This document shows positions 19,339 to 49,806 of a DNA stretch of 64,000 nucleotides, in pieces; within the stretch, counting starts at the first letter, position 1, and each line of letters starts with the position of its first letter. This stretch comes from Richelia sp. CSU_2_1. Lineage in GTDB: Bacteria; Cyanobacteriota; Cyanobacteriia; Cyanobacteriales; Microcoleaceae. The stretch is from contig JAAUPF010000006.1 in assembly GCA_012034575.1 (NCBI GenBank), forward strand, positions 1-64,000, in the 5' to 3' direction. Position numbers and translations under genes: made by a program. Below the pieces are notes generated by a model. It was not told the DNA's origin. It saw only the letters and a program-made list of their open reading frames with translations, and did no database searches.

Positions 19339-19772
19339 AAATTGGGAACTTGCAATACTGCACTTCCCGCACTCACGGCTGCATTTCCTAGCGTACTAGC
19401 AGTATTTGCGATCGCACTTGTGGCACTCGCAGCAGTATTCGCGATCGCACTTCCCGCACTCGCGACAGCATTTTCAGCAGTATTTGCGATCGCACTTCCC
19501 GCACTCGCAGCAGTATTTGCGATCGCATTTCCCGCACTCGCGACAGCATTTTCAGCAGTGTTTGCGATCGCACTTCCCGCATTCGCTGCTGCATTTCCTA
19601 CCGCACTCGCACTTGCAGAAATAGTTCCGATAATAGAATTGAACCAATTAGATTTATCCTTGGATTGTGCCTGCGCTGTCGGTTCGGATGGCTCTTTTTC
19701 TGCTATTTCGGTTGGCGACCCAATTGCTTCTAAATGCGTGCTATCTGTTTCAATTTCATTGTTATCTGGCAT
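19317..19772 (-). CDS. Alanine-rich repeat protein with HIP1-periodic coding
   Basis: 151 residues. An acidic N terminus (about 1-40) precedes a long array of near-identical helical units: AGSAIANTA, AENAVASAG. The coding DNA has a HIP1 octamer in each unit at 19408, 19441, 19486, 19519 and 19564, with spacings alternating 33 and 45 bases, so the true period is 78 bases (26 residues). The amphipathic alanine-rich repeat recalls phasin- or LEA-like helices; no family can be named. It overlaps and precedes the Mrr gene, which suggests a joint role. The array may be expanded by recombination. Confidence 0.65.
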   Translation of the reverse strand: MPDNNEIETDSTHLEAIGSPTEIAEKEPSEPTAQAQSKDKSNWFNSIIGTISASASAVGNAAANAGSAIANTAENAVASAGNAIANTAASAGSAIANTAENAVASAGSAIANTAASATSAIANTASTLGNAAVSAGSAVLQVPNFWVQPSV

Positions 19773-32550: not shown

Positions 32551-35500
32551 TTACTTCGACTCGATGATTGCTTCGGCTTCAAGGGCGATCGCTCTTAATT
32601 TATCTAATATATCTTGCTTCGCACTTTGCCACAACCCCCGTTGCTGGGCTTCTAACAATCTTTCCGCCATATCCCGCAGCGCCCAAGGATTATTTGCTTG
32701 AATAAATTCTTGCACTTTTTGATCGAAAATGTAAGCCTCGGCAATTCCTGCATACATAAAATCTTCTACACAATTTGCCGTAGCATCGTAAGCAAACAAA
32801 AAATCTACTGTCGCCGCAATTTCAAACGCACCTTTATAACCGTGGCGCATCGCCCCTTCAATCCATTTCGGATTCACCGCCCGACTGCGATAAACCCGTG
32901 CAATTTCTTCTCGCAATTGTCGCACTTTGGGATTTTCGGGAATTGAGTTATCGCCGAAATAAGTTGCGGGATTTTTGCCTTGTAAATTGCGAATTGCGGC
33001 TGTCATTCCGCCTTGAAATTGATAGTAATCGTCGGAGTCGAGAATGTCGTGTTCGCGATTATCTTGGTTGTGCAAAACTATTTGCATTTGACTGAGGCGT
33101 TTGGTGAATGCTTCGGGCGCGCAACACCCCCATTCACCCCCCCTAACCCCCCCTTGTAAAGGGGGGGGACAAGAGTTAGAATCACCCTGTTTTTGTAGGG
33201 GCGGTGCCCCCGTGCCCGCCCCGGTTGGGGGGGTATTTGTATAGGCGTAACTGCTCCAATTAATGTAAGCTGTTGCTAAATCCGCATCATCATTCCAATT
33301 TTGAGATTCAATTATGCCTTGAAGTCCGGCACCGTAAGCACCGGGTTTTGAACCGAATACTCGAAATTGCGATCGCCCTTGCGCTTCTTCTTTACTTAAA
33401 CCCGCCAATTCCCAATCTAAAATCTCTTGCTTAACTTGGGCTGCTAAAGGATTGTTTTCTGGAGTTTCATCTAATTTTGCCACAGCTTTTACCGCGCTGT
33501 CAAACAAATCGATTAAGTTGAAAAAAGCATCGCGAAAAAATCCCGAAATTCGCAAAGTAACATCGACTCGAGGTCTTCCCAAAACTGAAATTGGCAAGAT
33601 TTCAAAATCGACAACCCGGCGCGACGGGCCGTCCCAAATTGGTTGAACTCCAAGCAATGCTAAGGCTTCAGCGATGTCATCTCCGCCCGTGCGCATGGTA
33701 GATGTTCCCCACACTGACAAACCTAAAGTTTTGGGATATTCGCCGTTTTCTTGAGTGTATCTTTCGATTAAAGTTTCGGCGGCAACTCTGCCAACTCTCC
33801 AAGCAGTTTCTGTCGGGATGGCGCGGATATCTACTGAGTAAAAATTGCGTCCGGTGGGCAATACATCGGGTCTACCGCGGGTGGGTGCGCCGGATGCGCC
33901 GCTGGGTATGTGTCGCCCATCTAAGCCGCGCAATAAGTTAGTAATTTCTCGATCTGTTTGGAGGAGTGATGGTAAAAGATTGTTTTCGATCCAGTCTAAT
34001 TCTGGTTGTGTGGCTTGTCCTATTTTTGCAACCGCAGATGTAGCAGATGAACGCGGATGAACGCTGATGTTTGCAACCGCAGATGGTGCGGATGAATGCG
34101 GATGAACGCGGATGGTTTTTAGGAGGTTATAGACTATTTCGGTGGCTATTTTTTCGATTTCTTCTGTTAAATCGTTGGCGGTGGTTAAGGGGTCGAAATC
34201 TAAGTTTAAGTCTTTAGTTATGGCGCGGGTTAGGCCGATGCGATTTGTGCTGGGATGGCGCGCGATCGCAATTATTAAGTCCCTCAATTGTCGCCCTTGC
34301 GGGCATTGTCCGAATACGTGCAATCCGTCGCGAATTTGGGATTCTTTGAGTTCGCAAAGATAGCCGTCTGTGCGACTGATAAATTCGGTGAATTCTGATT
34401 TTTTGAATTCGATTCCTAAGTCTTTATCTAAGTTTTCTTGGTTGGTGAGATTGATGATGCGATCGCGAATTGCGGGCAATCTGGAAGGATCTAAACTTTG
34501 GGCTTCGCAATATTCGTCGATTAAGGTTTCTAATTGTTGCAAAGGTCCGTAAAGTTCGGCGCGCGTCATCGGCGGTGTCAGGTGGTCGATAATGACTGCT
34601 TGCGATCGTCTTTTTGCTTGCGAACCTTCTCCCGGATCGTTGACAATAAATGGATAAAAATTAGGCATCGCACCCAATGCAATTTCTGGATAACAATTGC
34701 TAGATAAAGCAACACTTTTACCCGGAAGCCATTCTAAATTCCCATGTTTTCCAGCATGAATTATTGCTTGAGTTCCGAACTTTTGGCGCAGCCAATAATA
34801 GTAAGCTAAATAATTGTGAGTTGGTTCTAAATCCGGTGCGTGATAGTTCAAACTCGGGTCAATTTCATAGCCCCGCGATGGTTGAATTCCCACAAACACA
34901 TTCCCAAACTGAATCCCCGGAATGGGAAATAGATTCGCATCCAAGTTCGCCTCCTGCTTCGTAGTAGGGACTTCAGTCCTGATTTCCCCCTGCGCCACCC
35001 CCCATCTCTGACAAATTCCCTCTTGTACTTGCTGCGGCAAAGTAGCAAAATACTCTTGATATTCCGCCAAATCCAAATATTGATGTACAGGCTGCAATTC
35101 GCGTCCTTCCGGGTCATTTGTTACGCCAGAAACCAGCAGTTCAATTAACTCTGAACTGTTGGCTGGTATGTTTTCAACGTGATAGCCGGCTTGCTGCATG
35201 GCTTTGAGGATTTCGACACAGCTAGCGGGCGTATCTAAGCCTACTCCATTGGCTAATCTGGCGTTGCGGGTGGGATAATTGGCGAGAATTATGGCGATGC
35301 GCCTGTCGGCAATTGGTGTTTGTTTTAAGCGTACCCAATTCGCGGCTAAATCTGCTACGAATTGAATGCGATCGACCGCTGCTACATAGCCTACTACATC
35401 TGTTTCTAATTCGCTATTCCAAGTTTGTACTGCTTTGAAAGAAACTGCCCGAGTAATGATTTTGCCGTCTACTTCCGGTAAAGCTACATTCATCGCTACA

Positions 35501-36528
35501 TCGCGGGGCGAAAGTCCTTGCAATTCCTTTTCCCACTGTGCAAAAGTGCCACCGCTAAATATTGCTTGCAATATGGGAATATCTAAGGATTGCAGGCTGT
35601 TTGTTTCCGATTCTTGACTGTTGAATCCCGAGACTGCAAAACTGGTGGTGTTGATGAGTAATTGAATTGGTTCGGCGTCTTTTGGTTGGAAATATTGCAG
35701 CAATTCTACTTGCAAATCCGGTTCGCGCAAAGATGAAATAAATATGGGAACTGGCAGCAACTTTCTATCGGATAGAGCTTGACAGAGAGAGTCGATCGGT
35801 GCTAAATTTCCTGATAAATAATGAGCGCGATAAAATAAGATTCCGACTGGATATATAGTTTGAGAAGAGGAGCGATCGAGCGATAAATTGGTTGTATTAT
35901 TAGTAGGATTAGGTACGATCGATTCTGTAGGGGCGGTGCCCCCGTGCCCGCCCTCCCCGTATTTTCCATCCGCGTGTCCAGCCCAATCGTAGATTCCCAC
36001 GCGAGAAACTGTTTGCGGAAGCGGCGGATTAAAAGCAGTTTGCAAACAAGTATCCGCAGCAAACAAAAGTGCATTCACAAAGTTTTGCACGCCGCCTTCT
36101 GTGAAATAGCGCCACAGTCTATTTACCGCCGACAGCGAGACAGTTGAATGACTCATTAAATCCGGATCGGGACTGTCATCTCCCGGCATTAGAATCAAGG
36201 ATGCTTGAGTTTTCTGCACCGTTTCTCGCAAAACTTCCAATCCGTAAGACCAATAAGAACGCCCCCCCAAAAGCCTTAAAATTATGACTTCCGCCTTTTC
36301 TAAAACTTCTTCCGCATAGGTATCAATTGTTAATTCTTGCTGCAATTGCAACAAATTAACGGCGCGAATTTTGGGAAAATCAAGCGGCATTTTTGCAGCC
36401 GCCGCCATAGTTAAAATATCAGTATCAGCAGCACTAATAAATACAATTGGTGCAGGATTCTGCTGAATAAAAATTACTCCCGATGTTTGAGGGTTCCAAC
36501 CTCCCGGCGTAGCAGCTATTTTGTGCAT
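32551..36528 (-). CDS. cobN: Cobaltochelatase subunit CobN with repeat insertions
   Basis: 1,325 residues, somewhat longer than cyanobacterial CobN usually is. CobN signatures run through it: IQPSRGYEIDPSLNYHAPD, LEPTHNYLAYYYWLRQKFG, IIHAGKHGNLEWLPGKS, IVNDPGEGSQAKRRSQAVII and VSVWGTSTMRTGGDDIAEAL-type blocks. It is the large subunit that, with CobS/CobT-like AAA partners, inserts cobalt into hydrogenobyrinate diamide for cobalamin; ChlH is its chlorophyll paralogue. Four stretches match repeats found in spacers: residues about 187-201, 515-525, 800-840 and 1093-1138. All stay in frame. A bare 100-base upstream spacer shows no cobalamin riboswitch. Confidence 0.93.
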   Translation of the reverse strand: MHKIAATPGGWNPQTSGVIFIQQNPAPIVFISAADTDILTMAAAAKMPLDFPKIRAVNLLQLQQELTIDTYAEEVLEKAEVIILRLLGGRSYWSYGLEVLRETVQKTQASLILMPGDDSPDPDLMSHSTVSLSAVNRLWRYFTEGGVQNFVNALLFAADTCLQTAFNPPLPQTVSRVGIYDWAGHADGKYGEGGHGGTAPTESIVPNPTNNTTNLSLDRSSSQTIYPVGILFYRAHYLSGNLAPIDSLCQALSDRKLLPVPIFISSLREPDLQVELLQYFQPKDAEPIQLLINTTSFAVSGFNSQESETNSLQSLDIPILQAIFSGGTFAQWEKELQGLSPRDVAMNVALPEVDGKIITRAVSFKAVQTWNSELETDVVGYVAAVDRIQFVADLAANWVRLKQTPIADRRIAIILANYPTRNARLANGVGLDTPASCVEILKAMQQAGYHVENIPANSSELIELLVSGVTNDPEGRELQPVHQYLDLAEYQEYFATLPQQVQEGICQRWGVAQGEIRTEVPTTKQEANLDANLFPIPGIQFGNVFVGIQPSRGYEIDPSLNYHAPDLEPTHNYLAYYYWLRQKFGTQAIIHAGKHGNLEWLPGKSVALSSNCYPEIALGAMPNFYPFIVNDPGEGSQAKRRSQAVIIDHLTPPMTRAELYGPLQQLETLIDEYCEAQSLDPSRLPAIRDRIINLTNQENLDKDLGIEFKKSEFTEFISRTDGYLCELKESQIRDGLHVFGQCPQGRQLRDLIIAIARHPSTNRIGLTRAITKDLNLDFDPLTTANDLTEEIEKIATEIVYNLLKTIRVHPHSSAPSAVANISVHPRSSATSAVAKIGQATQPELDWIENNLLPSLLQTDREITNLLRGLDGRHIPSGASGAPTRGRPDVLPTGRNFYSVDIRAIPTETAWRVGRVAAETLIERYTQENGEYPKTLGLSVWGTSTMRTGGDDIAEALALLGVQPIWDGPSRRVVDFEILPISVLGRPRVDVTLRISGFFRDAFFNLIDLFDSAVKAVAKLDETPENNPLAAQVKQEILDWELAGLSKEEAQGRSQFRVFGSKPGAYGAGLQGIIESQNWNDDADLATAYINWSSYAYTNTPPTGAGTGAPPLQKQGDSNSCPPPLQGGVRGGEWGCCAPEAFTKRLSQMQIVLHNQDNREHDILDSDDYYQFQGGMTAAIRNLQGKNPATYFGDNSIPENPKVRQLREEIARVYRSRAVNPKWIEGAMRHGYKGAFEIAATVDFLFAYDATANCVEDFMYAGIAEAYIFDQKVQEFIQANNPWALRDMAERLLEAQQRGLWQSAKQDILDKLRAIALEAEAIIESK
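33115..33250. repeat. Repeat cluster inside cobN (GGGGGT and GGGGCGGTGCC types)
   Basis: Contains CCCCCCCTAACCCCCCCTTG with its stem partner, and GTAGGGGCGGTGCCCCCGTG. On the coding strand these give APPLQKQGDSNS and PPPLQGGVRGG. The same elements occur in spacers and other genes (22428-22583, 35929-35967, 40735-40775, 49848-49873). Confidence 0.88.
34018..34125. repeat. Repeat inside cobN (GCAACCGCAGAT type)
   Basis: Two tandem copies of TTTGCAACCGCAGAT followed by GCGGATGAACGC-like units. They encode HPHSSAPSAVANISVHPRSS on the coding strand. The same family is in the spacers at 21560-21590, 36552-36590 and 39945-40083. Confidence 0.88.
35929..35967. repeat. Repeat inside cobN (GGGGCGGTGCCCCCGTGCCCGC)
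   Basis: A GC-rich near-palindrome read on the coding strand as GEGGHGGTAPTE. Another copy lies in the same gene at about 33196-33228 and a degenerate one in the spacer at 49848-49873. Confidence 0.85.
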
Positions 36529-36629
36529 TAACTTTCCCTCAAATTATCTGCGTTCATCAGCGTTCATCCGCCCTCATCAGCGGTTGCAATCTCAACCCAA
36601 AATTTTATGCAGAAACCATTATAACGTTA

Positions 36630-40150: not shown

Positions 40151-41523
40151 ATGAGTTACTGTCTGAATCCCAACTGCCAAAAACCCGCCAACAACCCCGC
40201 AGGCGCTAAATTTTGCCTCAATTGCGGAACTAGCTTGCTGTTGGGCGATCGCTACCGTCCAACTAAGTCTATAGCTAGAGAAGGTTTTGGCGTTGCTTTG
40301 CTGGCGCGAGATGAATTTAAACCCTCACAACCTCCCTGCGTCATCAAACAGTTTTTACCCTTAGAACACAATAATGCACCGAAAGCAATTGAATTATTTC
40401 GCCGGGAAGCAGTCCGTTTGGAAGAGTTGGGAAAACACCCGCAAATTCCCGAACTTTTAGCGCATTTTGAAGAGGGCGATCGACTTTATATCGTCCAGGA
40501 ATTTATTGATGGCAAAACTTTAACTCAAGAGTTAGTTCAAAACGGCTTGTTTCGCGAACAGCAAATTCGCGATCTGCTGCAAGATTTATTGCCAGTGTTG
40601 CAATTTATCCACAACGGACAAGTAATTCATCGCGATATTAAGCCGATAATATTATCCGCAGAAAATCCTCCACTTACCAAGAAGGGGCTAAGATGAATAC
40701 CAATCCTTATCGAGGGGAGGTTAATTCCAACTCTTGTCCCCCCCCTTTGCAAGGGGGGGTTAGGGGGGGTCTAGTTTTAGTTGATTTTGGTGCAGCAAAA
40801 TATGTTACTGCGACTGGTGGTGAAACTGGAACGACGATCGGGAGTGCGGGTTATGCGGCTCCGGAACAAACAGTTGGTAAAGCTGTAGTTGCCAGCGATA
40901 TTTACAGTTTGGGCGTTACTTGCATCCACTTGCTGACGGGAATGGAACCCTTCGATTTGTACGATGCTAGCGAAAGTAAGTTTGTCTGGCGCAATTATTT
41001 AATCGACAATCCTGTGAGCGCCGAACTGTCGCGAATTTTGGATAAAATGCTAGAAGTTCCGCTGAAAAATCGCTACAAATCTGCTGATGAAGTTTTGCAA
41101 GATTTAAATTCTTTAGTGAGTCAGCGACAAACACCCGTGTTGCAATTGTACCAGCAGCAACAAGGCCGATCGAACTTACCAGCAAACTTAAATTCCCACA
41201 GCTTTTTTCATTCAGCAAAATCTTGGTTGGCGGCAGGAATGCTGGTGATGTTGGGATGGGGAGGACATCAATACTGGCGGCTGACAAGGTGGAATTTAGA
41301 GGAAAATACTGACAGAATCGGTGCTGACTATAGCAATACGTTCATTAGCAAACCCGATCCAGATTTGTGCAAGCAAATCTGTGCGGTTGACGAACAATGT
41401 CAAGCTTTTACTTACGTGAGGCCCGGAATTGAGGGCGATCGAGCTCGGTGTTATTTCAAAAATGGCGTGCCTTCACCAAGTTTGAGAGAAGGTAGGAGTT
41501 CGAGTGTTAGACCTAGATGGTAA
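40151..41523 (+). pseudogene. Serine/threonine kinase (4-Cys prefix, PAN tail) broken by a repeat
   Basis: Frame one (40151-40696) has the 4-Cys prefix (CLNPNCQKP, FCLNCG) and a kinase N-lobe to VIHRDIKP. Frame two (40693-41523) resumes at LVLVDFGAAKYV, GSAGYAAPEQ and DIYSLGVTC, then a membrane span and a PAN/apple-like tail with CKQICAVDEQCQAFTYV. Between them lies roughly 120 bases including a CCCCCCCTTTGCAAGGGGGGG repeat. The insertion shifts frame and removes the EN of HRDIKPEN, whose Asn binds metal. The first frame therefore encodes no complete kinase. A four-base ATGA overlap could still allow a split protein, though an active kinase is unlikely. Confidence 0.85.
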
Positions 41524-48843: not shown

Positions 48844-49806
48844 ATGATTTCATCAATTAGTAGCGATCGAATTAAACAAAAAGCCCGAGAATTAGGATTT
48901 CACAAAGTCGGGATAGCCTCGGTCAACGAGAAAGCTGATACAGATGCCCAAAGATTGCAGGGGTGGTTGGACAAGGGCTACCAAGCAGATATGGCATGGA
49001 TGGCAAACCCAAAACGGCAGGATATTCGGTTGGTGATGCCGGATGTACAGTCTGTTATCTGTGTTGCTCTCAATTACTACAGCCCCCGGCCTGACTCCCC
49101 CAACCCCCCCTTAGTAAGGGGGGGCGATGATTATGCTAAGATTTCGCGCTACGGGTGGGGGCGGGATTACCACAAAGTGATGCACAAAAAGCTCAAAGAG
49201 TTAGCCCATTGGGTGCGATCGCAGGGCGAGGAAATTGAAGCGCGGTATTATGCTGATACTGGGCCGATTCAAGATAAAGTTTGGGCCCAGCGGGCGGGGA
49301 TTGGCTGGATTGCGAAAAATGGGAATGTAATTTCGCGAGAATACGGTTCCTGGGTGTTTTTAGGGGAAATTTTGACGAATTTGGAGTTAGAGGTGGATGC
49401 GCCCCACACCCAACATTGCGGTACTTGCACTCGCTGCATTGAAGCTTGTCCGACGGAAGCGATTGTCGAGCCTTTTGTGGTGAAGGCCGATCGGTGCATA
49501 GCTTATCATACGATCGAAAATCGCGCCGAAACATTGCCGGAGGAAATCGCATCTAATTTACAAGGTTGGGTAGCCGGTTGTGATATTTGTCAGGATGTTT
49601 GCCCTTGGAATCAGCGTTTTGCCCAACAAACGGATGTTGCAGAATTCGAGCCTTATCCTGAAAATATAGCGCCGACACTGGCAGAATTAGCAGAGATTTC
49701 TGATGAAGAGTGGAACCGCAGATTTACAGCTTCGGCGCTGCGACGAATTAAACCGGAAATGCTGCGGCGAAATGCGAGGGCGAATCAAGGAAAAGTTGAC
49801 AGTTGA
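48844..49806 (+). CDS. queG: Epoxyqueuosine reductase
   Basis: 320 residues. Two 4Fe-4S clusters are coded in CGTCTRCIEACPTEAIVEP and CDICQDVCPWN, and the cobalamin-binding domain in AWMANPKRQDIRLV and KISRYGWGRDYHKVMH. It reduces epoxyqueuosine to queuosine in tRNA with a B12 cofactor, so it depends on cobalamin like the cobN product helps make. Residues about 82-92 (RPDSPNPPLVRGGD) come from an inserted CCCCCAACCCCCCCTTAG-type repeat that stayed in frame. The last codons run into a TTGACAG heptamer array. Confidence 0.94.
   Translation: MISSISSDRIKQKARELGFHKVGIASVNEKADTDAQRLQGWLDKGYQADMAWMANPKRQDIRLVMPDVQSVICVALNYYSPRPDSPNPPLVRGGDDYAKISRYGWGRDYHKVMHKKLKELAHWVRSQGEEIEARYYADTGPIQDKVWAQRAGIGWIAKNGNVISREYGSWVFLGEILTNLELEVDAPHTQHCGTCTRCIEACPTEAIVEPFVVKADRCIAYHTIENRAETLPEEIASNLQGWVAGCDICQDVCPWNQRFAQQTDVAEFEPYPENIAPTLAELAEISDEEWNRRFTASALRRIKPEMLRRNARANQGKVDS
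49097..49126. repeat. Repeat inside queG (CCCCCAACCCCCCCTTAGTAAG)
   Basis: A shortened copy of the GGGGGATTTAGGGGGATC family inside queG, giving PNPPLVRGG. The family position normally has a short loop of different sequence between NYYxP and the AKISRYGWG motif. Confidence 0.8.

Follow-up and report, generated by a model that had tools for sequence, protein, structure and literature searches.

Several families of short palindromic repeats occur in frame in four variable loops of the cobaltochelatase subunit CobN of a Microcoleus-group cyanobacterium

Rickettsia palindromic elements (RPEs) are mobile palindromes that occur as in-frame insertions in genes unrelated to one another, and very small mobile repeats of cyanobacteria (Nostoc) are reportedly the subject of a 2008 work by Elhai, going by its title. 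Repetitive extragenic palindromic sequences (REPs) of the GTAG type form a hairpin, are present in many copies, lie beside the gene for a REP-associated tyrosine transposase (RAYT) and occur also inside genes, including those for tRNA synthetases and DNA ligase (PMC3733652). According to the same source, recB carries REPs at nearly the same position in two Xanthomonas species, and loops may be able to tolerate such elements. Here, a stretch of 64,000 nucleotides (“the window”) from contig JAAUPF010000006.1 of a Microcoleus-group cyanobacterium deposited as Richelia sp. CSU_2_1 was analyzed. Its gene cobN (positions 32551 to 36528, minus strand), which encodes the 1325-aa cobaltochelatase subunit CobN, hosts in-frame copies of repeats of several families in four loops, and it is these loops in which the CobN proteins of related species differ.

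The open reading frame (ORF) of cobN is uninterrupted, matched TIGR02257 with 1612 bits (cutoff, 822) as well as PF02514, and has a start region that is conserved in the homologue consensus, which was built from the window sequence and 47 of the 50 listed homologues (L019, L025, and L029 left out). The closest solved structures were CobN 9uk9 and 7c6o, followed by ChlH 4zhj. Site A (35848 to 35982, minus strand; residues 183 to 227) contains a copy of the repeat “family A,” a GTAG-type REP (35926 to 35953, plus strand), which is read from the minus strand as GGHGGTAPT. At site B, the palindromic repeat GTAGTAGGGACTTCAGTCCT of family B (34961 to 34980, plus strand) is read as RTEVPTT. Site C (34018 to 34125, minus strand) is composed of two ATCCGCGTTCATC repeat units (HPHSSAPSAVANISVHPRSSATSAVA) of family C, and the extra 45-bp unit (34070 to 34114, minus strand) is missing in the sister genome G007 and in G008, as judged from the DNA alignment. 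Site D harbors the composite insert GAGTGAPPLQKQGDSNSCPPPLQGGVRGGE (33115 to 33250, minus strand) where the sister has the SSNSSNLSGDAAGIKQ loop; it combines a copy of the family D1 palindrome CCCCCCTTNNNAAGGGGGG (33138 to 33166, plus strand) with a second family A REP (33194 to 33221, plus strand), identical to that in site A but read in another frame as GTGAPPL.

The copy numbers confirmed the initial annotation in its statement that cobN carries four repeat copies, all of them in frame, and its estimate of about 100 repeat-derived residues holds roughly. Family A was present in 120 copies in the genome (up to 3 mismatches) and family B in 96 (up to 2 mismatches), family D1 in 38, each with 0 hits of the reversed-pattern control. 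Family C had at least 42 genome matches including itself, a number obtained by scoring 40 of 152 first-look candidates and without a reversed-pattern control. In the window, there were 3 copies of family B (up to 3 mismatches; chance mean, 0.01), 7 pattern matches of family C, two of them overlapping (chance, 0), and 3 copies of D1 (chance, 0). No family A copies with up to 3 mismatches were found in the window beyond the two in cobN (chance, 0). The proposal that these families otherwise reside in the spacers of the window is consequently right only in part, since it fails for family A and for D1, the two other window copies of which are in or at genes (queG, 49095 to 49123; a split kinase gene, 40740 to 40768). 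The draft of this genome (G000) has a size of 7.27 Mb, a completeness of 86%, and a contamination of 6.6%, and these counts may include a second strain because the genome contains two RsmE genes. The predicted hairpin energy of the single CobN inserts was unexceptional (z, −0.82 to −2.15).

Comparison with homologues, from which L064 (a ChlH) and L065, L066, and L068 (duplicate fetches of included loci) were omitted, showed that the same four sites are occupied by different repeats, by additional tandem copies, or by no repeat at all. In the 28 sequences of the Microcoleus group, referred to below as the genus, the four loops were strongly different and the remaining CobN little. Site A was a variable run of 15 to 165 residues in the 18 full-length CobN proteins of the genus, and runs at site D reached 103 residues. 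Across the genus, site A contained family A, D1-type blocks, both, or neither, with about four tandem D1-type copies in G016; site B contained family B, a GRDTAMPC-type palindrome, or neither; and site C had one family C unit in most sequences and two in the genome of the window. PPxPPYQGGANSNSCPPP-type blocks occupied site D in 11 of 26 scored sequences and a SSSSSNLPGDVAGVKQ-type loop in the other 15. The nearest sequence, that of G007, had the same inserts at sites A and B, one unit fewer at site C (exactly 45 bp), and another loop at site D. On a tree of the CobN core, calculated from 28 genus sequences (fragment G027 left out), with one piece each from five broken loci, and 6 sequences from other genera, the minimum number of state changes was 7 for site D (26 of the 28 sequences scored). 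For site A, it was 7 with respect to family A (27 scored; the variant GGHAPSTAPT of L005 and L032 counted as not family A) and 6 with respect to D1 (28 scored), whereas family B at site B required 4 (27 scored).

Repeat matches were concentrated in the loops, with 123 in 4524 loop residues of the genus compared to 7 in 31456 residues outside, and all 7 were misaligned repeat tails in the broken sequences L030 and L032. The remaining sequences contained 14 matches in 2918 loop residues and 7 in 36086 outside, 6 of the latter being misaligned tails of the fragments L060 and L062 from genus genomes and 1 being located two residues from site C in L021 (G055). The loops of other genera were mostly short or unrelated. 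A few of these sequences (L021, L036, L039, L041, and L052) had pattern matches of the same families, and repeat matches in CobN loops were found in G037, G046, and G055, with G037 having five of family B at its site A. Inspection of the peptides by eye indicated other simple repeats in some loops of other genera, and an additional loop around residue 705, site E, was filled in some of them. The filling was longest in G034 (L055), where tandem SSSEKDSNFLWYSEQNQEKFV-type units accounted for about 450 residues of a CobN frame of 1879 aa. The length of CobN had a standard deviation of 61.5 residues in the 18 full-length proteins, compared to 4.0 for its paralogue ChlH, which has the same fold, in 21 genomes; in the ChlH of G004, PPQPPLTKGGPGG was present where site E would be and a short GGLPLQ close to the counterpart of site A.

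A structure model was available for residues 126 to 1325, with a mean predicted local distance difference test (pLDDT) value of 69.2 and CobN 7c6o as best structural match (template modeling score, 0.62). The pLDDT was below 50 at residues 186 to 221 (site A), 515 to 528 (site B), 808 to 832 (site C), and 1102 to 1132 (site D), and these four stretches were predicted as coil except for a short helix at 524 to 528. Blocks holding repeats had a mean pLDDT of 52 and other blocks one of 71.5, in agreement with loose loops at these sites. That CobN has loops able to take up inserts, as already proposed, is thus supported by the differences of the sites between species, the concentration of the matches in the sites, and the low model confidence there.

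Of the four families, family A could be assigned to a described class. Its sequence, GTAGGGGCGGTGCCCCCGTGCCCGCCC, is a short palindrome with GTAGGGGC at one of its ends, and it was present with 5 to 117 copies in all 29 genus genomes (up to 2 mismatches) but in 0 of 7 other genomes of the same taxonomic family and in 2 of the 23 remaining genomes. A single insert was predicted to form a hairpin of unexceptional energy (z, −1.10), whereas the 61-nucleotide pair of inverted copies beside the RAYT gene of the same genome reached a z of −4.19, with none of 200 shuffled sequences as good. This gene (L306, 563 to 1345) encodes a Y1 transposase of 260 aa, which passed the Y1 domain PF01797 with 29.4 bits (cutoff, 23); two family A copies immediately precede the gene, and its 3′ part contains a near-copy. 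Among 51 RAYT matches listed, 30 with loci were used for a neighborhood analysis, and family A occurred in the fetched flanks of all five nearest RAYTs (65 to 100% identical, the own one included, and one from another taxonomic family, G039) but in 0 of the 25 fetched flanks of more distant RAYTs. The four genomes with a close RAYT had 117, 97, 29, and 56 family A copies, whereas the median of the 25 genomes without one was 27 (P = 0.013; P = 0.047 without G000). A close RAYT was not found in most of the genus genomes carrying family A; as a predictor of the family A copy number, presence of a RAYT was weak only, with G016 as a clear exception. Family A is a GTAG-type REP, and there is strong circumstantial evidence from its neighborhood that family A and this RAYT form a REP-RAYT pair.

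From what was observed directly, namely which repeats are present, where and in which frame, how species differ in them, how well the core is conserved, and that REP and RAYT are neighbors, it is highly probable that mobile repeats enter the genome and that in-frame copies in the four CobN loops are tolerated while harmful ones are lost, with the RAYT moving family A. Short mobile palindromic repeats would continually enter the genome of this cyanobacterium. Those landing in frame in the four structurally loose loops would be tolerated, and copies landing elsewhere in cobN or out of frame would be removed by selection, so that the frame would be maintained by selection rather than by targeting. 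Family A is most likely moved by the RAYT transposase of the same genome. Its stop-poor sequence may help, with five of its six frames being open. Once settled, units seem to multiply by in-frame tandem duplication, as the 45-bp unit of site C suggests, and the surviving copies may grow in tandem and be swapped. The inserts would be translated and the enzyme would have its normal activity. Tolerated insertions into loops, rather than ancient sequence or decay, are indicated because the loops vary, the core is conserved, and the length of ChlH is nearly constant.

Several observations count against this interpretation and need to be considered. The structure model is of middling quality and many other stretches also had a pLDDT below 50; because low confidence occurs elsewhere too, the low values at the four sites are no proof of loose loops. 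The core tree is weak, with 13 of 31 inner branches open, and the repeat states placed on it were scored by eye. G037, which belongs to another taxonomic family, has the family C match HPRLSAFIRG at site C; it was read as a separate insertion, which cannot be proved. The transposase remained below the cutoff of NCBIfam NF047646 (REP_Tyr_transpos), with 61.5 bits instead of 80 (E = 7.7e-17), and some genomes rich in family A, such as G016 (91 copies), had no RAYT match. Finally, strains could exchange loop alleles by recombination.

The last point leads to the alternative that the loop variants arose only a few times and were subsequently shuffled between strains by homologous recombination, so that the number of insertions would be small. 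Near-identical SSSSSNLPGDVAGVKQSEWG loops as well as repeat loops were found at site D in both main clades, and the sister genomes differ at this site by replacement of the loop and not by a pure insertion. This explanation is nevertheless rather unlikely, because a single site holds different repeat families and tandem numbers and because repeat matches occur in the loops of G037, G046, and G055 from other genera, which means that several separate insertions are needed.

The suggestion that cobN may be decaying, with the inserts marking a loss of function, is favored by some of the 28 genus sequences: G001 has a frame break inside the site B repeat, G010 a stop codon near residue 124, and G009 a frame break outside the repeats. 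Among the broken loci, L030 and L031 had N gaps, L025 a break outside the repeat, and L012 a stop codon. Use of such breaks as proof of out-of-frame insertion was rejected, since only that of G001 is inside a repeat. The ratio of nonsynonymous to synonymous substitutions (dN/dS) in the CobN core had a median of 0.095 and a range of 0.066 to 0.157 in 28 comparisons with the window gene, so that the core is under purifying selection, and in 18 genes of the genus the reading frame is uninterrupted from end to end, all 18 with at least one repeat match in a loop (in 6 of them the blocks at site D). With the gene of the window also being intact, decay is very improbable. Even less can be said for a misjoining of repeats into cobN during assembly, despite the contamination of the draft genome G000, the ends of several cobN contigs at insert sites, and N gaps at site A in G017 and G003, because D1-type repeats at site A are also present on chromosome-sized cobN contigs, those of G012 (7.48 Mb) and G020 (6.76 Mb). 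That the stretches are ancient CobN sequence and the source of the dispersed repeats, as one unit at site C in most genus sequences and the similar stretch in G037 might indicate, has next to no probability, because the loops of the outgroups are mostly short or unrelated, nearly all sequences of other genera are without the site C stretch and that of G037 is the sole similar one, the repeats exist in tens of copies outside cobN, and the phmmer alignment with the solved CobN 9uk9 is broken at sites A and D, gapped at site B, and at site C aligned to unrelated sequence of similar length. The same stretches, which would be expected in distant CobN proteins if ancient, were mostly not found there.

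To evaluate the label “spacer-type” given to these repeats by the initial annotation, the context of 75 of 117 family A copies was examined, with neither CobN copy among them and two double entries removed. A copy was regarded as being inside an ORF when the ORF comprised 150 aa or more and extended by 30 aa or more beyond the copy in both directions. This was the case for 37 copies, while 32 were outside and 6 too near an end, so that family A is not mainly extragenic; this is a departure from the GTAG-type REPs in degree only, because PMC3733652 allows intragenic copies. The frames of the 37 copies were VGAVPPCPP (14), AGTGAPPLQ (10), GGHGGTAPT (6), GRARGHRPY (4), and RGGAPVPAL (3), which means that all five stop-free frames were used. 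Copies preceded by a T (TGTAG) were inside ORFs in 29 of 40 scorable cases compared to 8 of 29 for the others (Fisher P = 0.0003), and they were no rarer in ORFs than random positions (771 of 1150, on the loci used for the context of families B and C). The label is therefore only partly right: it does not fit the TGTAG copies of family A, although families B and C were mostly outside ORFs (inside at 0 of 9 and 2 of 29 loci, respectively). An ORF around a family A copy is no proof of a gene: of 16 hosts scanned, 7 were above the cutoff of a whole-protein model (CysRS, ValRS, TIGR03032, beta-ketoacyl synthase, LL-diaminopimelate aminotransferase, RsmE, and LanM) and 2 more only above that of a short TPR domain.

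Further repeats were observed at other positions. A family C repeat (36545 to 36589, minus strand) starts 16 bases before the start codon of cobN and was not found within 200 bp upstream in any of the 17 relatives examined; G007 and G008 have, by eye, a family B-like repeat at this place. One loop of RsmE (12 loci aligned, L353 to L364) contained family A in two frames in different species and, judged by peptide, D1-like blocks in some species. In queG (48844 to 49806, plus strand), the D1-like copy at 49095 to 49123 is in frame (SPNPPLVRGG) and inside the DUF1730 match. The Ser/Thr kinase gene (40151 to 41523) consists of two overlapping ORFs in different frames, with a D1 repeat (40718 to 40770) at the frame change, between the HRDIKP (by eye) and DFG motifs. 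Tandem repeats of 33 bp with GCGATCGC are located at 19365 to 19631 within overlapping ORFs.

Compared to the intragenic GTAG-type REPs of PMC3733652, family A is alike in its GTAG end, hairpin, copy number, RAYT neighbor, and intragenic copies. Differences are the presence of several unrelated families in the same loops of one enzyme throughout a genus, a frequency of TGTAG copies in ORFs that is no lower than that of random positions, and marked tandem growth. The cyanobacterial families of that source, GTAG-12, -15, and -16, were from Anabaena, Nostoc, and Cyanothece. The paired inverted REPs next to a transposase resemble the REPIN/RAYT system, for which, in PMC3116915, REPs were chosen as predominantly extragenic, unlike family A with its many copies in ORFs. 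The proposed resemblance to RPEs is valid in the way of working, in that insertion is in frame and into unrelated genes. The elements themselves differ: RPEs code for a conserved peptide, whereas family A is read in five frames and is a GTAG-type REP with a RAYT. The units here have about 20 to 60 bp, another sequence, and a cyanobacterial host, compared to a length of about 150 bp for RPEs (PMC10969869). The open-licence literature searched contained no paper on repeats in cobN, no report of the loops of one enzyme being repeatedly filled by several families, and no mention of the family A-RAYT pair of Microcoleus. As far as these searches show, the repeated filling of the CobN loops by several families and this pair are new; intragenic REPs and the idea of loop tolerance (PMC3733652) as well as RPEs (PMC10969869) were already known.

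These data provide a clear cyanobacterial case of mobile repeats becoming part of a conserved protein, and the related genomes are numerous enough for insertion, tandem growth, and swapping of units to be recognized. They also explain the odd peptides GGHGGTAPT, VGAVPPCPP, and PPLQGG in proteins of this group. It becomes testable which loops tolerate inserts and whether transposition of REPs makes new protein segments. A more general interpretation, with somewhat less than an even chance of being right, is that a few loops, sites A to D of CobN and the RsmE loop, may be shared landing loops in which unrelated repeats are repeatedly fixed, and that a RAYT-linked REP of Microcoleus may enter genes about as freely as spacers. 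If so, this genus would steadily add and swap protein segments in housekeeping enzymes, a natural experiment on the tolerance of proteins to insertions.

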